IMG/VR virus record: IMGVR_UViG_3300025879_000009
Span: 1 to 30,067 of that record
Reading direction: 5' to 3' (one strand)
Source of the DNA: a virus
Length of the DNA stretch: 30,067 bases
The notes beneath the pieces are model-generated. The model worked only from the letters and a program-made list of their open reading frames with translations. It was not told where the DNA came from and did no database searches. Shown here piece after piece: positions 3,826 to 27,984 of the stretch (position 1 is its first letter; every line of letters starts with the position of its first letter). The position numbers and the translations under genes were made by a program.

Positions 3826-4353
3826 CTATTTGGTTTTATAGTTTTCTTTATTGAAGCTCATTCTTATATTTTTCTTGATGTTGTTTATATCCTTGGTTAT
3901 ATGGATACGATTTATATTATAGTATCTACTCATTTCCCGTTGTGAGTCACCTGATACAAAGTGTTTCTCTGCTATGGTTCTTTCATATACTGGTAGATTA
4001 CCTATGTATAGTTTTACATCTTTGGAGAGTTTTTCTGTGTCTTGGTGGGTTTCTACTTTATCTTCTATCCCTTCTAGTATATCATCGTTTATTTCTACTG
4101 ATTTTAGAAGTGTTTTTTTATATTGGGTATAGAATGGAGAGGTTGATGAGTTATATTGTATATGCACCATCTTGATGATATAGTGTTGTACTTTATCATC
4201 TTCTACTATTTTGTTTGTATAATCACTACCTTTTTCTAGTAGGTTTAAGATGCAGTCTTGTAGTAAATCCTCTGTATCCTGATGGTTACGAGTTACTGCT
4301 TTTACCTTATTTAGTATTTCGGTATAGTGCTTTTGTATATAGTTTCCTATCAT
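3826..4353 (-). CDS. Sigma-70-like RNA polymerase sigma factor
   Basis: The 175-residue protein has the two-domain plan of ECF-type sigma factors. Region 2 is at about residues 25-90 (HQDTEDLLQDCILNLLEKGS), and region 4 at about 119-165 contains a helix-turn-helix (LPVYERTIAEKHFVSGDSQREMSRYYNINRIHITKDI, given here as two overlapping parts of the domain). It probably redirects host RNA polymerase to phage promoters; the shared element before units B-E is the natural candidate target. It is the first gene of its unit, just after a terminator (4405-4435), with a leader carrying GGGAAAGG before the ATG. That ribosome-binding region is perfectly complementary over 15 bases to a hairpin loop at 15704-15718. 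Confidence 0.75.
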   Translation of the reverse strand: MIGNYIQKHYTEILNKVKAVTRNHQDTEDLLQDCILNLLEKGSDYTNKIVEDDKVQHYIIKMVHIQYNSSTSPFYTQYKKTLLKSVEINDDILEGIEDKVETHQDTEKLSKDVKLYIGNLPVYERTIAEKHFVSGDSQREMSRYYNINRIHITKDINNIKKNIRMSFNKENYKTK

Positions 4354-4381
4354 TGGATTACCTTTCCCTTTAATATAAGTA

Positions 4382-12475: not shown

Positions 12476-13696
12476 TTAGAAATTACCTTGTGCTTTTGAG
12501 TCTACAACTACCAATGTTTCTCCATTAGTCAACTTGTATTCTCCATCTTGCAACGTTACTGCTCTCTCTCCATCTTTTAATATAAATACGACCAAGGTGT
12601 TTTCATCTATTACGATTTCAGTTCCACTCTCGATTGTTCTGTAATAGAAAGTTTGTTTAGATTGGTTTATCATCTTATCAGCAAAGTATCCTTCTACGGA
12701 CCATCCTAGCACCTTGCCTTCTTTGATATACTCATCCCAAACTTTCTTATTGTTTATTTTCATTGTGCCAAACCATGTACCCTTTGGGTATGTCTTACCC
12801 ATCATTGCGAATGATTTATCTTTTTCTGGATCTTCTACTAGCCATGATTCTACGAGGGTTACATCTTCTACTACATTATCTTCTGCATGGTCTATATTTA
12901 CTGATGATTGGTAGTTGTTTATCAAGTATTTATGTGCAATCTTTTCGATTGTTTCTTCACTAAAATATACCCAGTATTCACCTTGTTCTAAATCGAATCG
13001 GTAGATTAGTTTTTTCGGTACCATGATTGCTCCTACTACTAATCCCTTTTCTTTATTTTGTTCTGCGAAGGTACTTTTTATATTTGATTTCTTAAATGGT
13101 ACTTTTACCCATTGATGTCTGCAGTATTTTCCACCGGCATACTTAAATATATCGTATATAAGTGAGCCTTTTTGTGCAAATCCACTATTCTCACCCGTAT
13201 AGGTCATCTTGTTTATATCTTCTTTACGATATAGTTTATTCATATCGAGTAGAGTTCTACAAAATGAGCGAGTATCACTCTGTATAGGGGAACCTTTACC
13301 TGGTTGTACTCTGTATTGGTATCTGTATATCCTATCACCAGTATCTTCCAAAGAAGAAAGGTCTGCGGTGGATTGTATTACGAAGTGCTCGTCCCCCAAC
13401 CCTTCACGAATCCAACCAGCAGCCTTTAGTTCTTCCTCAGTCTCCCCTACGGATTCTAGTTGTTGTATTATATTATCTTGTATTTCTTCTGGTAGATTAT
13501 CAACTGATTCTTCATTTAGTATATCTTCTACTATTTTCTCGAAGATATATTCATCAGTTATGGGTTTTTGTTCGTTAAAGTAGTAGAAGTTTTCTTCTAT
13601 TGCTGGTGTTTCTACCAACGATATACGATCTACTCCACTCGTTAAATCGAATTCGTCTATTTCTAATGCAATTATTTTCATTGGTTGGTTCCCCAT
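12476..13696 (-). CDS. Prohead protease (XkdF-like) with Mu gpF-like segment
   Basis: The capsid maturation protease. N-terminal residues 6-36 (MKIIALEIDEFDLTSGVDRI) are typical of the family. Residues about 130-200 (DTRSFCRTLLDMNKLYRKED, then CRHQWVKV) resemble the C-terminal part of Mu gpF-type head proteins. The serine protease domain (about 218-340) has VVGAIMVPKKLIYRFD, NIDHAED with likely catalytic His270, and GWSVEGYF with Ser333. Residues 384-399 (DGEYKLTNGETLVVVD) copy a module in the scaffold. The start at 13696 is five codons upstream of a second Met at 13681 that could be the true start. A promoter-like element lies 9 bases upstream. Confidence 0.82.
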   Translation of the reverse strand: MGNQPMKIIALEIDEFDLTSGVDRISLVETPAIEENFYYFNEQKPITDEYIFEKIVEDILNEESVDNLPEEIQDNIIQQLESVGETEEELKAAGWIREGLGDEHFVIQSTADLSSLEDTGDRIYRYQYRVQPGKGSPIQSDTRSFCRTLLDMNKLYRKEDINKMTYTGENSGFAQKGSLIYDIFKYAGGKYCRHQWVKVPFKKSNIKSTFAEQNKEKGLVVGAIMVPKKLIYRFDLEQGEYWVYFSEETIEKIAHKYLINNYQSSVNIDHAEDNVVEDVTLVESWLVEDPEKDKSFAMMGKTYPKGTWFGTMKINNKKVWDEYIKEGKVLGWSVEGYFADKMINQSKQTFYYRTIESGTEIVIDENTLVVFILKDGERAVTLQDGEYKLTNGETLVVVDSKAQGNF

Positions 13697-13745: not shown

Positions 13746-15617
13746 TTACCCTACACTGCGTTTAGCAGAGAGTTTAGCATCTGCTTCTTGGTTAGTAGTT
13801 ACATCACCACTTACCACGTATGCTCTTACCATCTCGTTACTTGGTTTCTGTGCCTCTGCTATATCAAGTGGTCCTATCTGTTGTTCCAATCCACTCATGT
13901 TAGGTGTTTGTCCTATCCCACTTGGAACTGATGGTGTTGAGTTTCCACCTTTTGGTTTAGCAGAGTTGATTTGTTTTAAGGAACTTACTGTTGTTGCTGC
14001 AAGTAGAGCGAATTGAGAGATTTGGTAGGGTATTGCACCAAAACTCATTTTCTGTGCGTTATTTATAATACCTACTGCAGCTTGTCCTGCATCTACTAAT
14101 ACCATTGCTGATGCTAGTGCTTTGTTTTCACCAAATAGGGTCATCAGTGCACCTTGAATAGCATCGATGGATTGGTTAGTTACATCTCTTTTGTTTTGTG
14201 CAACTGCTTCATCATCATCCTTCTGTATATCATCATACGCTTGGTTCAGTTGTTTTTTCTTCTCGTTGAACAATTTGTTGATTGCTAGTTTCTCTTGTTC
14301 AGTTAGTTCTTCGTTAGCAACCTCCTTTTGTCTATCTGCTTCTAATAAAGCTAGGTTAGCAGTTCTTTCTTCTTCCAAAGAAGTTGCCTGCATCAACCTT
14401 ATCTCATTTTCTATATCTATTACATTTTGAGTTGCAGCAGCAATTGCCATCTTGGTATCTTCATTTGCTTGGTCAGTTATTTCTTTCTTCTTGGTTAGAT
14501 AGTTTTGTTCTGCCTGTAATCGTATTTTGGTTTTTTCTTCTTCACTTACTTTTAGTGCATCTATTTCTGCCTGTGCTCGTTTGTATTCTAAATCAAGTTT
14601 TTCTATATCACTCTTTGCAAGTAAATCTTGTGCTTCTTGTTCGTATTTTTGTAGTAGGTTTAGGGCTTCTTCTGCATTCTTTTTCTTTTCATCAGCTATT
14701 TCTTTATTTCTAGCCTTTCTCTTATCATCAGCTTCCTTATCCAACTTATCTTGTTCATCCTTGATTTCTTTATTTATTTTAGCATCAAGTATCTGTTGTT
14801 GTAAGAGGTTTTCTTCGTATTCATCTGTACCTTTCTCCAAAAGTTTTAGTTCCTCTTGTAGTTTCTTCTTTTGTAGGTCTAATGTCTTTTCTCCTGCTGC
14901 TTCTTGTAATCGTATTTGTTTATCAAGTTCCTTTATAGTAGTTTTAGTTAGTTTAGTTGCAGCATCATCTACTAATCCTATACTTTCTGCAAGGGAAGTA
15001 AATGCTCCTACTATACTATCTATGATTCCACTAAATGGTCCAAGTGCCTTCTTTATCAGGTCAAGTATTGCATCTCTAAAAGTATATATCAGTGCTCCTA
15101 CTGCAGTTAGAGATACAATTAGTATTCCAAGTGGGTTCATTGCCATGATAGCATTGAATGCAGTTTGTACTACGTTATATGCTTTCTGTGCTGCAGATGC
15201 AACTTTGGTAGATTTAGCGAGTTTTCCAAACCCTTCACTTAAATCTTTCAGTCCCATACCGAATGATATAGCAGAGGCTGCTTTTCCTTCCAAGAACTCT
15301 AGTTTCTCACTTTCTACTCCAAGTAGTCCAAACCCTCCTACGAGTGCCTGGGTAGAACCTGCAAGGGTTTTGATTGCACCATCTGCAGTTTCCAGTTTAT
15401 CTTCCAAGGATATACCTTCTATCTCTTTATTTAGGTTCTTTATACTTTTCTGTACGTTTTGAGCCTCTTTGGTTAAATCCTTAAATTGTTGGGTATTGGG
15501 TTTTATCAGTTTCAGAGCTGCATTTAACCCCTCCGCTTCTCTTTCCAATTGGGATAGAGTTTGTACTGATTTACCATCATCTATGTTGATTTTGTAATTT
15601 ATGCTTTTCTCTGCCAT
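13746..15617 (-). CDS. Tail tape measure protein
   Basis: A 623-residue protein that sets tail length and helps DNA ejection. Residues 1-75 form a helical N-terminal domain (INIDDGKSVQTLSQLEREAE); about 150-215 hold hydrophobic segments (NPLGILIVSLTAVGALIYTF, GIIDSIVGAFTSLAESIG); 225-480 are an almost unbroken Glu/Lys/Ala coiled coil; about 505-560 are hydrophobic and Gly/Ala-rich (ALASAMVLVDAGQAAVGIIN). At about 1.5 angstrom per residue this predicts a tail near 90 nm. It has its own promoter-like element 5 bases before the ATG and no Shine-Dalgarno sequence. It lies far from its chaperone gene (27984), which is unusual. Confidence 0.87.
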   Translation of the reverse strand: MAEKSINYKINIDDGKSVQTLSQLEREAEGLNAALKLIKPNTQQFKDLTKEAQNVQKSIKNLNKEIEGISLEDKLETADGAIKTLAGSTQALVGGFGLLGVESEKLEFLEGKAASAISFGMGLKDLSEGFGKLAKSTKVASAAQKAYNVVQTAFNAIMAMNPLGILIVSLTAVGALIYTFRDAILDLIKKALGPFSGIIDSIVGAFTSLAESIGLVDDAATKLTKTTIKELDKQIRLQEAAGEKTLDLQKKKLQEELKLLEKGTDEYEENLLQQQILDAKINKEIKDEQDKLDKEADDKRKARNKEIADEKKKNAEEALNLLQKYEQEAQDLLAKSDIEKLDLEYKRAQAEIDALKVSEEEKTKIRLQAEQNYLTKKKEITDQANEDTKMAIAAATQNVIDIENEIRLMQATSLEEERTANLALLEADRQKEVANEELTEQEKLAINKLFNEKKKQLNQAYDDIQKDDDEAVAQNKRDVTNQSIDAIQGALMTLFGENKALASAMVLVDAGQAAVGIINNAQKMSFGAIPYQISQFALLAATTVSSLKQINSAKPKGGNSTPSVPSGIGQTPNMSGLEQQIGPLDIAEAQKPSNEMVRAYVVSGDVTTNQEADAKLSAKRSVG

Positions 15618-15622
15618 ACTAA

Positions 15623-15652
15623 ATTATATTTTTTTATCATAATTGGTATAAA
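15623..15652 (-). promoter_or_regulatory. Phage late promoter copy before the tape measure gene
   Basis: Minus-strand TTTATACCAAT (15652-15642), 11 bases, AATATAAT (15630-15623), then only 5 bases to the ATG at 15617. The transcript would begin at or within a few bases of the start codon, so a leaderless mRNA is predicted. The block sequence and spacing match the copy at 27992-28021 exactly. Confidence 0.65.
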
Positions 15653-15657
15653 TGATT

Positions 15658-15685
15658 TTAACCACCTGATATATTTTTATATAGT
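15658..15685 (+). promoter_or_regulatory. Predicted plus-strand promoter of the small RNA
   Basis: A -35-like TTAACC (15658-15663), a 16-base spacer and a -10-like TATAGT (15680-15685). The predicted first base (about 15692) lies right at the first hairpin. It is back to back with the tape measure promoter, so the two could interfere. Confidence 0.4.
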
Positions 15686-15691
15686 ATTGTA

Positions 15692-15806
15692 AGAGTGGGT
15701 TTTATTGGATTACCTTTCATTTTTCCCACTCGTGCTATTTTATAGATTTTCTATATAGAAACAAGGGGACAATGGTTTATGGTATTCTTCATTCAGTCCC
15801 CTTTTT
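15692..15806 (+). ncRNA. Candidate antisense small RNA with loop complementary to the sigma-factor start region
   Basis: About 115 nt. The first hairpin has the stem GAGTGGG/CCCACTC (15693-15699, 15725-15731) and a 25-nt unpaired loop. The loop contains ATTGGATTACCTTTC (15704-15718), the exact complement of the sigma-like gene's mRNA from its GAAAGG ribosome-binding site to the AT of its ATG (4366-4352). A linker containing the palindrome TTTCTATATAGAAA follows, then a terminator hairpin with T5. Promoter, exposed antisense loop and terminator in this order are the layout of bacterial antisense RNAs. The RNA would block translation of the sigma factor. Expression is not shown; no long ORF occupies the region. 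Confidence 0.45.
15763..15806 (+). terminator. Intrinsic terminator of the candidate small RNA
   Basis: The stem AAGGGGAC (15763-15770) pairs with GTCCCCTT (15796-15803), extended inside by AATG/CATT with a 2-base bulge, loop of 15, followed by a run of five T (15802-15806). The GC-rich core in an AT-rich gap and the T run support termination on the plus strand. Confidence 0.55.
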
Positions 15807-16258: not shown

Positions 16259-16588
16259 ATGGCATACAATAAAATTACACTAGCAACTCAGCATCGTTTT
16301 GAGGAACTTAAAGAGTATAGGGCTTATCTTAAAGAAAAGAAGGCTATACAGAAAAAGTATCGTTCCAAACCTTGGGATATACATACTTCTTTAGGTCCAG
16401 GCAACTATAAAGATAGTTATGATGAAAATTGGTGGAAAGAATGGCAATTATACAAACAAGATATGTTAGAGTTGTTATTTAGACCTAATGGCAACTTTCA
16501 GCAATTTACTTGGTTACTTATCAGCGAAAAAGAGGAAGAAGAAAGGGAACGAAGAGCTAAGGGGTATAACCGGAGTATCTACTACTAA
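16259..16588 (+). CDS. Hypothetical protein, the only plus-strand gene
   Basis: A 109-residue protein beginning MAYNKITLATQHRFEELKEY. It is charged, with five tryptophans in all and a WW pair (DENWWKEWQLYKQDMLELLF), and ends in a Glu/Arg-rich helix (SEKEEEERERRAKGYNRSIY). Codon use is ordinary for this genome, which supports a real gene. No domain is recognised. It runs convergent to the SGNH hydrolase gene and overlaps its last 32 bases. The long structured gap before it may be its leader. Being the only gene against the direction of all others, it may be expressed at a different time. Confidence 0.7.
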   Translation: MAYNKITLATQHRFEELKEYRAYLKEKKAIQKKYRSKPWDIHTSLGPGNYKDSYDENWWKEWQLYKQDMLELLFRPNGNFQQFTWLLISEKEEEERERRAKGYNRSIYY

Positions 16589-18058: not shown

Positions 18059-19009
18059 TTATTTTAAGCAACTTGTTTTCCCTACCTCTTGTACTAATTG
18101 GTAGTATTTATATCCCGCTAGGGTTGTATCTATGTCCTCTATTATATCTCCGTAGGGTAGTATTCCATTATCGTATTTTCCCTTAAAGAATCTATCCTTT
18201 TGAGTTCCCAATACTCCAGCATTATGGTAGAACCCAAAGGTTTCCCAATCCTTTACACCATTAGTATAAAACATAAAGTTAAATTCCTCGGGTACTGCAG
18301 TCAATCTTCCGTGTTTCCATGCAGTCCATAGTTCACTCCACATACTCATTGTCCAATGTTGTAATGGGTGGTAGTGTTCTCCCTTACTTTCCTTTTCCTT
18401 AGCTATTCTTGCTGAGATTGGTGGTATTTCTTCCCATAGTTTTAGTTGTAGTTCATAGGAATCTTTCCAGTAGGAGGTTGGTACTCCTTTCATTAGTTTC
18501 TGTGCACCTCCACTTCCTCCTTGGTTTCTTCTTACGAACCCTTTATCTAGTCCAGCAATCTCACACATCTTATCTAAAATTTCCTCTCCTTTTGAGGAGA
18601 TATATTCTGCACCTATATACGAGATAGTATCACTTAAATACCATATATTATCATGCAAGAATGGCTCAAAATCAAAGGGTTTAGTAAATATAAAATCACT
18701 ATCGTGGAAGAAGATATGTTCTTTTTCTAGCAGTGGGTTACTTATCCAATGTTTGTATAGTAGATGAGCCTGTATAGATGGTTGGTATTTATTATATTCT
18801 CTTGTATCTTTGTAGAAGAAGAATTGCACACCTGGAAAGTTCTTTATTAGTTTTCTCCATTCTATTGGTACTTCATTCCATGTTGGAACTAATCCTTGTA
18901 CTAAATGTATTTGTTGGGGAGACACCCCCATATTTAGAAAATTGGTTATATACACTTCTGCCTCCCACGCAAAACGTGGGATAGCAGGTTGGCAACTTAA
19001 ATAAATCAT
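18059..19009 (-). CDS. Glycosyltransferase-like protein with DxD motif
   Basis: A 316-residue protein beginning MIYLSCQPAIPRFAWEAEVY. Residues 99-110 are IFFHDSDFIFTK, with Asp103-Ser-Asp105 as a probable metal and nucleotide-sugar binding DxD. Histidine- and tryptophan-rich segments (YHPLQHWTMSMWSELW) may form the acceptor site. I know similar proteins from aquatic phages, annotated as hypothetical glycosyltransferases. It opens unit C, with a promoter-like element overlapping the end of the adhesin gene. A short hairpin (18963-18981, TCCCACG/CGTGGGA) lies in codons 10-16. Confidence 0.7.
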   Translation of the reverse strand: MIYLSCQPAIPRFAWEAEVYITNFLNMGVSPQQIHLVQGLVPTWNEVPIEWRKLIKNFPGVQFFFYKDTREYNKYQPSIQAHLLYKHWISNPLLEKEHIFFHDSDFIFTKPFDFEPFLHDNIWYLSDTISYIGAEYISSKGEEILDKMCEIAGLDKGFVRRNQGGSGGAQKLMKGVPTSYWKDSYELQLKLWEEIPPISARIAKEKESKGEHYHPLQHWTMSMWSELWTAWKHGRLTAVPEEFNFMFYTNGVKDWETFGFYHNAGVLGTQKDRFFKGKYDNGILPYGDIIEDIDTTLAGYKYYQLVQEVGKTSCLK

Positions 19010-19025
19010 TCTATATAGTTTATCT

Positions 19026-19054
19026 ATTATATATGATTTTTATATTGGTTATAC
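19026..19054 (-). promoter_or_regulatory. Phage late promoter copy before the glycosyltransferase/bS21 unit
   Basis: Minus-strand GTATAACCAAT (19054-19044), 10 bases, TATATAAT (19033-19026), 16 bases before the ATG at 19009. The spacer is one base shorter than in the other copies and the leader is longer. It overlaps the stop codon of the adhesin gene. Confidence 0.5.
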
Positions 19055-21445
19055 ACATGGTCCTACTGATATTACTATTCCATTCACATCAGTTTGGTAG
19101 TATCCACCCGTTACATTTTCTCTATAATACCCTGGTCCTACTTCATTTCCTAAATTACATCCTGCTGTATCATATACTGTATATCCTACTTCTGGTATAG
19201 CTCCTGGCCCATCGTGGTAGTAGGTATTGAAAGCAAAAGTATTACATACATTTCCTAAAGTTGTTGGGTCACCACTATCAAATGAAGTGCATGAAGGTGC
19301 AACAGTTGTAGTGGTAGTCACCGGAGGTTGGGTAGTAGTAGTTACGGTACAAGTTGTAGCTTCAGTTGTCAATACCCAACTAAAAGTTCCACTCTGTCTT
19401 GCCACCGAACCTTGTTCAGCACAGAAGTCTGGTGTTCCACTATCTGCCAATACCACTACATCTTGTATCAACGTTCCTTCACAATCTCTGTATTGGAATG
19501 TTAAGTTTTCAGTTAAAGAGTTGTTTTGGATACTATACGTATAGCAACCAGGCACAGTCGTAGTGGTTGTAGTCACCGGAATTGTAGTGCTTGTAGTTGT
19601 CACCGGAATTGTAGTAGTAGTAGTTACTGGAATTGTAGTCGTGGTAGTAACTGGCACTACTGGCAAACAATCTCCATCTACGGTACATATAGTTCCATTC
19701 GGGTTGATATTCATACCCTCTATTCCTACGAATGGACTTCCACTTGGGCCATACTTAAATAAATCACTTGTAGTTCCTCTACTACATATTCCAAAGTAGG
19801 TAGAACCATCTTGCTCAGTTCCAATAGTTTGTGCTAAGTTTATATCTCTACTTCCACCTCCACAATCATTAACAATATAGTATAAATCTAATCCACCATC
19901 AGTTAATTGAGTATTTAGTACATCTACTGTTATACAATTACATTCTACTACGGTGGTGCTCGTGGTAGTCACCGGAATTGTAGTGCTGGTGGTTGTAATA
20001 GGTTGAGTTGTGCTAGTCGTGGTAGGTACTACGGTACAAGATGTAGCTTCTATTGTTAAAACCCAACTATTAGTTCCACTTTGTCTATATACACTACCTT
20101 GTTCAGCACAGAAGTCTGGCGTAGAACTATCAGCAAGAACTACTACATCTGTCACAGGGTTTCCATCACAATCTGTATATCCAAATGTTAGGTTCTGGCT
20201 CAAATCATTGTTTTGGATACTATATGTATAGCAACCAGGTACAGTAGTAGTCGTAGTAGTCACCGGAATTGTAGTGCTAGTCGTGGTTCCAATACAAGTA
20301 TCACATCCACTTACGATTGTATATCCACTTATATCCAAACAAGATAAATCACTTGGGTCACATGCATCATAGATAGCTTTTGTAGTAGTTGATTTTGCAA
20401 AGAAGCAAGAACCAAAGATACTTGTAGCATCAGCACTATTCGGTGTTAAAGATGTTGTTAATACACTTGTAGTTCTTACTACTCTATCCAATCCATCAAA
20501 TTGAGTGCCTGGACATCCTTCCATATAATAGTAGTTATACGGGTCTACTGTCGTGGTACTGGTGGTGGTTGTTGTAATTGGTTCGGTGGTGGTACTTGTA
20601 GTTACACATAGTACTGCTCCTAAAAACTCTCCATCACTTGCTATTTGCCAAGATTGTCCTGATACTACATCCAATCCATCTCCTACTCCATAGTATAAGT
20701 TTCCACCATTCCACGGAGTTGTTGCTCCTGCATCACTATATAATATATCTCCTACTACTATTGAGTAGAATGAATTTCTTAACGAGTAGAAGGTATATGG
20801 TAGTGGTTGGTCACATCCTCCTGCAGGTCCTCCTGAACCATTAGTTGGTGTTGCATGTATATCATAACTAAATGTTTGAGGCGAGGTAGTCGTAGTGGTA
20901 GTTATACCCAAACAATCGTTACAGTTAGTATATGTTGATGCAATAAAGAACTTAATGAATGGTTCTTGTTCGTGAGTTGATATCAAAGTATAGCATGCAC
21001 CATTTTCTAGTTTTACTACATCACCTGGTGAGTAAGTTTGAGTAGCTACTATTAGTGTTGTTATAGGGAATGGGTCCTCACATCCACTACCACTCCAATA
21101 TGTTTCTACTATTGGTATAGTTGTACTGGTGGTGGTACTCGTTGTGCTGGTACTGGTGGTGCTTGTAGTGGTGCTGGTACTTGTACTGGTGCTGGTCGTG
21201 GTGGTCGTTATCACACTACCACTTATTACGAAATTACTACATGGTTCTGGTATAGATTGTAGTTTTACACATTGGGTTTCTTCTGGTACGGTTATCACTG
21301 CAGTAGAACCAACAGTAGGCAGATTTATATTACTACCATCTACTGATTGAGTAAAGTTTATACAATCGGTAGAGTAGAATGCATCATAGTTTGGTCCAGA
21401 GTCATTCTTTTCGGTTAGCGTTATTAGTTTTAGTATATCTGCCAT
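19049..21445 (-). CDS. Multidomain adhesin with Thr-rich linkers
   Basis: A 798-residue protein built like beads on a string: about eight Cys-containing domains joined by seven Thr/Ser-rich linkers (such as TTTSTTIPVTTTTTTVP). The first linker (residues about 78-110) is nearly pure Thr/Ser. One domain type occurs twice, at residues 404-470 and 633-699 (GCYTYSIQNN, LADSxTPDFCAEQGS, SWVLTxEAT). The C-terminal domain ends VNGIVISVGPCV. It follows tail hub and marine-type tail genes, so it is probably a tail-tip adhesin or receptor-binding protein. The linkers are good candidates for O-glycosylation, and glycosyltransferase genes come next. The gene has no homologue of known function that I can name. 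Confidence 0.75.
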   Translation of the reverse strand: MADILKLITLTEKNDSGPNYDAFYSTDCINFTQSVDGSNINLPTVGSTAVITVPEETQCVKLQSIPEPCSNFVISGSVITTTTTSTSTSTSTTTSTTSTSTTSTTTSTTIPIVETYWSGSGCEDPFPITTLIVATQTYSPGDVVKLENGACYTLISTHEQEPFIKFFIASTYTNCNDCLGITTTTTTSPQTFSYDIHATPTNGSGGPAGGCDQPLPYTFYSLRNSFYSIVVGDILYSDAGATTPWNGGNLYYGVGDGLDVVSGQSWQIASDGEFLGAVLCVTTSTTTEPITTTTTSTTTVDPYNYYYMEGCPGTQFDGLDRVVRTTSVLTTSLTPNSADATSIFGSCFFAKSTTTKAIYDACDPSDLSCLDISGYTIVSGCDTCIGTTTSTTIPVTTTTTTVPGCYTYSIQNNDLSQNLTFGYTDCDGNPVTDVVVLADSSTPDFCAEQGSVYRQSGTNSWVLTIEATSCTVVPTTTSTTQPITTTSTTIPVTTTSTTVVECNCITVDVLNTQLTDGGLDLYYIVNDCGGGSRDINLAQTIGTEQDGSTYFGICSRGTTSDLFKYGPSGSPFVGIEGMNINPNGTICTVDGDCLPVVPVTTTTTIPVTTTTTIPVTTTSTTIPVTTTTTTVPGCYTYSIQNNSLTENLTFQYRDCEGTLIQDVVVLADSGTPDFCAEQGSVARQSGTFSWVLTTEATTCTVTTTTQPPVTTTTTVAPSCTSFDSGDPTTLGNVCNTFAFNTYYHDGPGAIPEVGYTVYDTAGCNLGNEVGPGYYRENVTGGYYQTDVNGIVISVGPCV
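19349..19549 (-). repeat. Duplicated adhesin domain, second copy
   Basis: This 201-bp segment encodes the domain starting GCYTYSIQNNSL and ending EATTC. It matches 20036-20236 at most positions, with the same length and conserved cysteines, and is followed by a Thr-rich linker as the first copy is. Confidence 0.85.
20036..20236 (-). repeat. Duplicated adhesin domain, first copy
   Basis: This 201-bp segment encodes the domain starting GCYTYSIQNNDL and ending EATSC. It is clearly homologous to 19349-19549, and a different domain lies between the two copies. Recombination between the similar linker DNA would explain the duplication. Confidence 0.85.
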
Positions 21446-27130: not shown

Positions 27131-27984
27131 TTATCTTCTCCAACTTAATTGTTGTAATCTTATTCGTTCTTTCTTATCTTTTTCTCGTTGTAGTTCTTCT
27201 TCCAACGATAGCCAGTTAAATATGGTTACTATATTTACCTTTGTTACGTCTGTTTCCCCAGTGAGTTTGAGTATTCCTCCATCTTTTGCAAGTTGGTGGA
27301 GCGTATAGAACCATCCATAGAATCCAGCAACTGATTGAACACCTCCATCACTTTCTTCTTCTCCTTTTTCGCTTTCTTGGGTAGGGAATAAATTATCGTA
27401 TCTCTTGATAAGTTGAGACCTATGTACAAAAAAAAACTATATGCTCCGAGAGCAACTGATATTGGTAGGTTCTTAAATCGTTCTTCGTTCCACTCTCGTT
27501 TCTCGGTATCATACTCATCTACTTGATAGTACTTAAATAAGTTTTCTGAGCTTCCTACTGCATACTTTACGTTATGTTTGAGTTTCCATTCTATACTATC
27601 CAATCGGTGTTTGGTTACTGGTCTGTATAGTATTGCAAGTACTTCATGCAGAGATGATATACCCTTACTTAATTTATTATCTAAATCTATATACTCACCC
27701 CCACTCATCTTATGTATTGGTTGCAATCCCCATAGTTGGTTATCCCACTCGAAGATTGGTAGAAAGGTTGATTGTAGTTCTCCTATACGTTCGTGGAGTT
27801 CTTTATATATCTGCAAGATAGATTTTAGTTCCCACGTTCTTACTTCACTTTCATCTTTATCAGCAACTGCAGCAACTATTCGTATCATTCTTTCACCTTC
27901 GGTTAGGTGGTCGAGTGTTCCAAACTTCTGGTATTGTCCTACGGTTATCTGTGCCGGTATTGTTATTTCTATTTGTTTTCCCAT
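27131..27984 (-). CDS. Tail assembly chaperone with -1 frameshift at a run of nine T
   Basis: In frame 0 the gene reads from 27984 (MGKQIEITIPAQITVGQYQK) and would stop at 27244 after 246 residues. After the T9 run (27436-27428 on this strand) the -1 frame continues for about 100 codons to a stop at 27131. It carries QLIKRYDNLFPTQESEKG, GFYGWFYTLHQLAKDGGILK and FNWLSLEEELQREKDKKERI, typical of tail chaperone extensions. Frame 0 after T9 has G-ending codons (aag, gag, gtg), unlike the genome, while the -1 frame has normal codons. The -1 frame has a stop at about 27473, so the switch must lie between there and 27428 or later. Heptamer T-TTT-TTT is a canonical slip site. The product would have 284 residues. 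A one-base assembly error in the T run is the alternative. Confidence 0.8.
27428..27436 (-). promoter_or_regulatory. Slippery T9 run (programmed frameshift site)
   Basis: Minus-strand AGT TTT TTT TTG in frame 0. It permits a simultaneous -1 slip of both tRNAs with full re-pairing (T-TTT-TTT). The downstream -1 frame is open to 27131. Confidence 0.6.

Follow-up and report, generated by a model that had tools for sequence, protein, structure and literature searches.

Here we report a predicted small RNA gene of about 115 nt, at 15692-15806 on the plus strand of a 30,067-nucleotide viral record (IMG/VR IMGVR_UViG_3300025879_000009, positions 1 to 30,067; the whole of this stretch is called the window below), whose product we consider likely to be a trans-acting antisense RNA directed at the mRNA of an ECF-like sigma factor that the phage itself encodes, with transcription from a late-class promoter closing a negative feedback loop. 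The proposal draws on the architecture of the RNA, its synteny, its complementarity to the sigma message, the co-variation of loop and target and the class of its promoter, each established by sequence analysis alone; there are no transcript or reporter data. In the mechanism that we envisage, the 5′ hairpin would display a single-stranded loop able to pair with the sigma mRNA at its ribosome-binding site and start codon, this pairing would block ribosome entry, and a GC-rich hairpin with a run of U would terminate the RNA. That the RNA is transcribed and that it blocks translation are inferences, as are the sign and timing of the feedback.

The RNA gene opens with a hairpin (15693-15731, plus strand) in which a GC-rich stem of 7 bp, GAGTGGG/CCCACTC (15693-15699 with 15725-15731), holds a 25-nt loop (15700-15724), and it closes with an intrinsic terminator (15763-15806, plus strand) made of AAGGGGAC ... 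GTCCCCTT and then T5 at 15802-15806; an A/T-rich stretch separates the 5′ hairpin from the GC-rich terminator hairpin. The antisense segment of the loop, 15704-15718 on the plus strand, is defined by its exact match to 4352-4366. The coordinates that an earlier, sequence-only reading had assigned to promoter, hairpin, loop and terminator were all borne out. A 119-nt stretch containing the gene folds at -34.1 kcal/mol, against a mean of -20.6 kcal/mol for dinucleotide shuffles (n = 200), giving a z of -4.2, with none of the 200 shuffles folding as well; the 5′ hairpin is additionally supported by stem pairing across seven phages, and the terminator by its counterparts in relatives. Covariance models from Rfam gave no match in the window at the gathering threshold. 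The RNA has a putative promoter and rho-independent terminator of its own, for which the evidence is confined to sequence, and we file it by architecture as a trans-encoded base-pairing sRNA whose expression and activity are inferred.

Relatives were fetched from viral contigs by means of the major capsid, portal, tape-measure and sigma proteins. About a dozen distinct related phages carry an RNA gene that diverges from the tape-measure gene; the sequences differ, and the plan common to them is a promoter of the TAACCAC type, in most cases a large-looped hairpin, and a GC-rich terminator. In L005 and L006 the RNA stretch is 95% identical to that of the window (110 of 116 columns), while the 150 bases 3′ of the terminator are only 53% identical between L006 and the window, which places a sharp edge of conservation at the terminator. 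The fold is supported in nine of the ten relatives tested (z -3.4 to -6.3), the RNA of L023 being unexceptional (z -1.2). Departures from the plan are seen in L077, where one long hairpin doubles as the terminator, and in L135, which has no 5′ hairpin and instead carries a free 5′ segment ahead of the terminator. In the 5′ stems of seven phages, the first seven base pairs are standard in 49 of 49 cases and include 21 two-sided changes. The stem arms were picked by eye, which biases this count towards pairing; with that reservation, the stems do differ among the seven phages while remaining paired.

The nearest cultured phages, judged by the portal protein, are the Nonlabens phages P12024S/L at 29% identity, and for this reason a host among the Bacteroidota is likely. 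It is shown by no direct assignment, because no relative of the major capsid protein family was found in bacterial and archaeal genomes. Close to the RNA gene, at 16259-16588 on the plus strand, the window carries an open frame of 109 amino acids opposite the late genes, without a PHROG or Pfam match; in L006, a 64-base intergenic piece nearby is inverted.

The putative RNA promoter (15658-15685, plus strand) consists of TTAACC(AC), with TTAACC at 15658-15663, a 16-nt spacer and TATAGT at 15680-15685, and most relatives also have a promoter ahead of the RNA. A weight matrix built from the promoters of protein genes only (TWWACCAM, 12-13 nt, TATAAT), with the RNA promoter outside the training set, scored this site at 14.5, the best plus-strand match in the whole window, the next plus-strand site reaching 9.9. 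On the minus strand the matrix picked out four sites, 15647, 13730, 19049 and 28016, which precede the tape-measure gene and the genes at 12476-13696, 18059-19009 and 27244-27984; promoters of the TWWACCAM-N12/13-TATAAT class are thus found shortly upstream of the start codons of four genes, structural or late. The tape-measure promoter (TATACCA-N15-TATAAT, 15615-15652, minus strand), which ties with 28016 as top-scoring minus-strand site, lies back to back with the RNA promoter and ends 5 nt before the ATG of the tail tape-measure gene (13746-15617, minus strand), a gene recognised from PHROG matches and the alignment of relatives and used here as the syntenic marker of the RNA locus. This spacing suggests very short leaders there. 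As judged by motif and matrix, the predicted promoters of the RNA and of the late structural genes are of one sequence class. Because the RNA and tape-measure promoters share that class, co-activation combined with negative feedback is likelier than mutual exclusion, and the earlier suggestion that tape-measure transcription shuts the RNA off is not supported. Also on the minus strand, 19049-21445 encodes a protein in which numerous threonine-rich repeats (TTTTT runs) separate cysteine-bearing modules; it is possibly a tail or adhesin protein.

The proposed target is the message of a 175-aa ECF-like sigma factor (3826-4353, minus strand). The protein matches PHROG 1740 (RNA polymerase sigma factor) with E=2.6e-13, and TIGR02937 (sigma70-ECF) matches all 13 members of the family, the window protein itself at E=8.5e-10 and 38.5 bits, under the curated cut-off of 42.9. 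Foldseek searches of the PDB with the predicted structure returned mainly ECF sigma factors, at modest E-values of which none was below 0.001; a profile of the sigma alignment run against PDB sequences found two unrelated proteins and nothing else, and a phage collection gave no match, whether searched by DNA or, for sigma, by tblastn. The leader of the sigma gene, which is among the few with a clear Shine-Dalgarno (SD) sequence in these genomes, differs from the late-class promoters in having a terminator, TTTTTACGTT and TATACTTATA, and is host-like. That the phage sigma factor recognises and drives the TWWACCAM promoters is an inference. Elsewhere on the minus strand, 1153-2421 encodes a ParB-like N-terminal domain fused to an N6/N4 DNA methyltransferase.

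The sequence ATTGGATTACCTTTC occurs exactly at 15704-15718 and at 4352-4366, and every other site in the window has at least two mismatches to it. Since positions 4351-4353 carry the sigma ATG on the complementary strand, the 15-nt match spans the stretch from the SD-like AAAGG to the AT of the ATG, within a translation start region, AAAGGGAAAGGTAATCCAATG (4351-4375, minus strand), that is delimited as the target on sequence and pairing score; the exact complementarity between loop and sigma start described in the sequence-only reading was confirmed. The loop/sigma duplex, at -24.8 kcal/mol, ranks first among the 1024 ATG sites of the window (0 of the 1023 others pair as well with the loop), and the sigma start has the top pairing score of the window's gene starts, 17, the others listed scoring 8 or less. 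A duplex scan with the full hairpin over all genome windows neither singled out sigma nor ranked it first, because the GC-rich stem sequence dominates the scores, and after such scans the pairing tests were limited to the loop and to ATG regions. None of 40 simulated genomes contained a 15-nt match to the window loop. About two 15-nt direct repeats are expected in 30 kb under a first-order Markov model, however, and many more are observed; because such repeats are not rare in this genome, the bare 15-nt repeat in the window would not convince alone. The decisive support for the predicted pairing of RNA and sigma mRNA is comparative.

Seven phages have the RNA and the sigma gene on one contig, with L033 and L135 read across contig ends. 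Contiguous complementarity between the loop and the phage's own sigma start amounts to 15 nt in the window, 9 nt in L006, 11 nt in L008, 11 nt in L023 and 12 nt in L135, where it lies over the sigma ATG, and pairings of 8+7 nt in L077 and 5+8 nt in L033 are each interrupted by one bulged base. Shared ancestry of a single motif is not the explanation of these matches, because the loops differ so much among the phages. When a gapped pairing score for the sigma start was compared, contig by contig, with those of all other ATGs on either strand, the P values were 0.013 in L008, 0.003 in L023, 0.004 in L077, 0.002 in L033 and 0.004 in L135, giving a Fisher combined P of 2.8e-8 for these five phages, with the window and its close relative L006 left out. 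In a swap test the phages' own loop/sigma pairs gave the highest total of 720 permutations, and with the window removed they remained highest of 120. Among orthologous families present in at least four of the five phages (window and L006 again excluded), sigma had a mean pairing score of 12.4 and the next gene family 8.8. Loop and leader therefore change together in five divergent phages rather than independently, and the claim of the sequence-only reading that the RNA is aimed at the sigma mRNA is supported, the agreement being weak in L006.

This agreement is not uniform. For L006, which is the closest relative, the score of the sigma start is matched by 31 of 721 other ATGs; the loop of L008 is T-rich and of low complexity, and 196 of 2000 shuffled versions do no worse than it; the same-species pairs L018/L017 and L035/L040 show weaker agreement of loop and sigma; and further scans for additional loop/sigma pairs added none. 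The limits of the loops were drawn by eye, and the sample of seven loop/sigma pairs is small. The HNH gene that lies downstream of sigma in the sigma cluster of L077 pairs better than sigma itself (16 versus 13), so the RNA may act on more than one message. At the start of the HNH endonuclease gene at 14699 in L077/L093, 12 contiguous bases, AAAGGTAAACAT, match the RNA loop.

Several other accounts of the shared segment need to be weighed. A cis-antisense RNA of the OOP or sar type was ruled out, since the target lies 11.3 kb away rather than opposite the RNA gene. Coincidence, by which a 15-nt repeat in AT-rich DNA would happen to stand beside an unrelated terminator hairpin, can appeal to the 15-nt repeats that this genome does contain, yet five further divergent phages show the pattern again, in different sequences, at the combined P given above, and we attach next to no weight to it. 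The RNA could also be real and have its main target elsewhere, in a host mRNA or in another phage mRNA such as that of the HNH gene, with sigma as a secondary target. The better match of the HNH start in L077 and the UACCUUUCAU-like core shared by several loops fit such an arrangement, and host genomes lay outside the reach of the comparison; sigma is nevertheless the sole gene family with consistently high pairing across phages, and the dominance of own pairs in the swap test would not be expected for an unrelated host target, so that we judge this account unlikely without dismissing it.

Two further accounts concern what the shared segment might be recognised by. It could be a DNA operator of one regulatory protein, with one copy ahead of the sigma gene and another between the divergent promoters: an operator would likewise look alike at both places within each genome, the segment is close to both divergent promoters, and operators may be inferred to co-vary with their protein. 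Against this, what the sigma-side segment overlaps in every phage is the ribosome-binding site or the start codon and not the promoter; no motif is common to different phages (L135 versus L033); the other copy always lies between promoter and terminator, mostly in a hairpin loop; and the one-base bulge at a similar place in L077 and L033 and the G-U pair in L018/L017 suit an RNA duplex but not an operator. We give an operator little credence. Less credible still is a loop that generically mimics the anti-SD sequence of 16S rRNA and binds any AGG-bearing leader, or the ribosome. Its core, UUACCUUUC, does resemble the anti-SD sequence, by our inference, and few leaders in these genomes besides that of sigma have a clear SD, but the pairing runs past the SD into bases that vary between phages and co-vary, and in L135 it covers CCUGAUGAAAAU, not the SD.

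We accordingly return to an antisense RNA that would act on the sigma mRNA. Negative feedback is proposed because the RNA promoter is of the late class whereas the sigma leader is different and host-like. In the most likely circuit, sigma or late transcription would switch the RNA on and the RNA would stop further sigma synthesis; put in terms of timing, the RNA is probably transcribed alongside the late genes and brings sigma synthesis to a halt. A wider view, in which uncultured and probably Bacteroidota phages share an "anti-sigma RNA" feedback whose loop and target would be re-matched in each lineage as the remaining RNA turns over, is one that we hold to be evenly poised between right and wrong. 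The loop/leader pairs are clean and testable, and the promoters used by sigma are predicted.

Phage antisense RNAs that repress phage regulators include lambda OOP (cII), P22 sar (ant) and lambda aQ (Q), of which sar blocks the initiation of ant translation, and the window RNA is alike in being a small phage RNA predicted to pair with the mRNA of a phage regulator and lower its synthesis (PMC12197685). OOP, sar and aQ are encoded opposite or within their targets, whereas the window RNA (15692-15806, plus strand) is encoded 11.3 kb from the sigma start (4353, minus strand), and it differs from them further in its short pairing through a loop and in having a sigma factor as target. In phages P1, P7 and P4, the c4 RNA and its target come from one transcript, out of which c4 is processed. 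The c4 RNA shares with the window RNA the presentation of complementary segments in RNA loops, and differs in controlling phage immunity and antirepressor genes (PMC12197685). Trans-encoded phage sRNAs that stand alone and pair with mRNAs are represented by VpdS, PreS and PAK_P4as15, none of which targets a phage sigma factor: PAK_P4as15 represses a phage gene, endolysin, which is not a transcription factor, PreS is directed at the host gene dnaN and VpdS operates in a quorum-linked temperate phage, these last two RNAs either relying on Hfq or competing for it (PMC12197685). StxS resembles the window RNA in that it derives from a phage and pairs with a sigma-factor mRNA (rpoS) in its 5′ region, but it is a prophage sRNA that activates host rpoS, whereas the window RNA is expected to repress the phage's own ECF-like sigma factor (PMC12197685). 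In the literature searched, which was covered only in part, no report came up of a phage RNA that targets a phage sigma factor, and we take the predicted RNA to be new in its target and in its phage group. The control of phage sigma factors is generally ascribed to promoters and anti-sigma proteins, and in the Bacteroidota, most of which lack Hfq, regulation by RNA pairing is little explored. If the proposal is correct, it would place a trans-acting sRNA in phages of Bacteroidota; it would also add a new layer to the control of timing, in which an RNA maintained by co-evolution among uncultured phages restrains a phage sigma factor.
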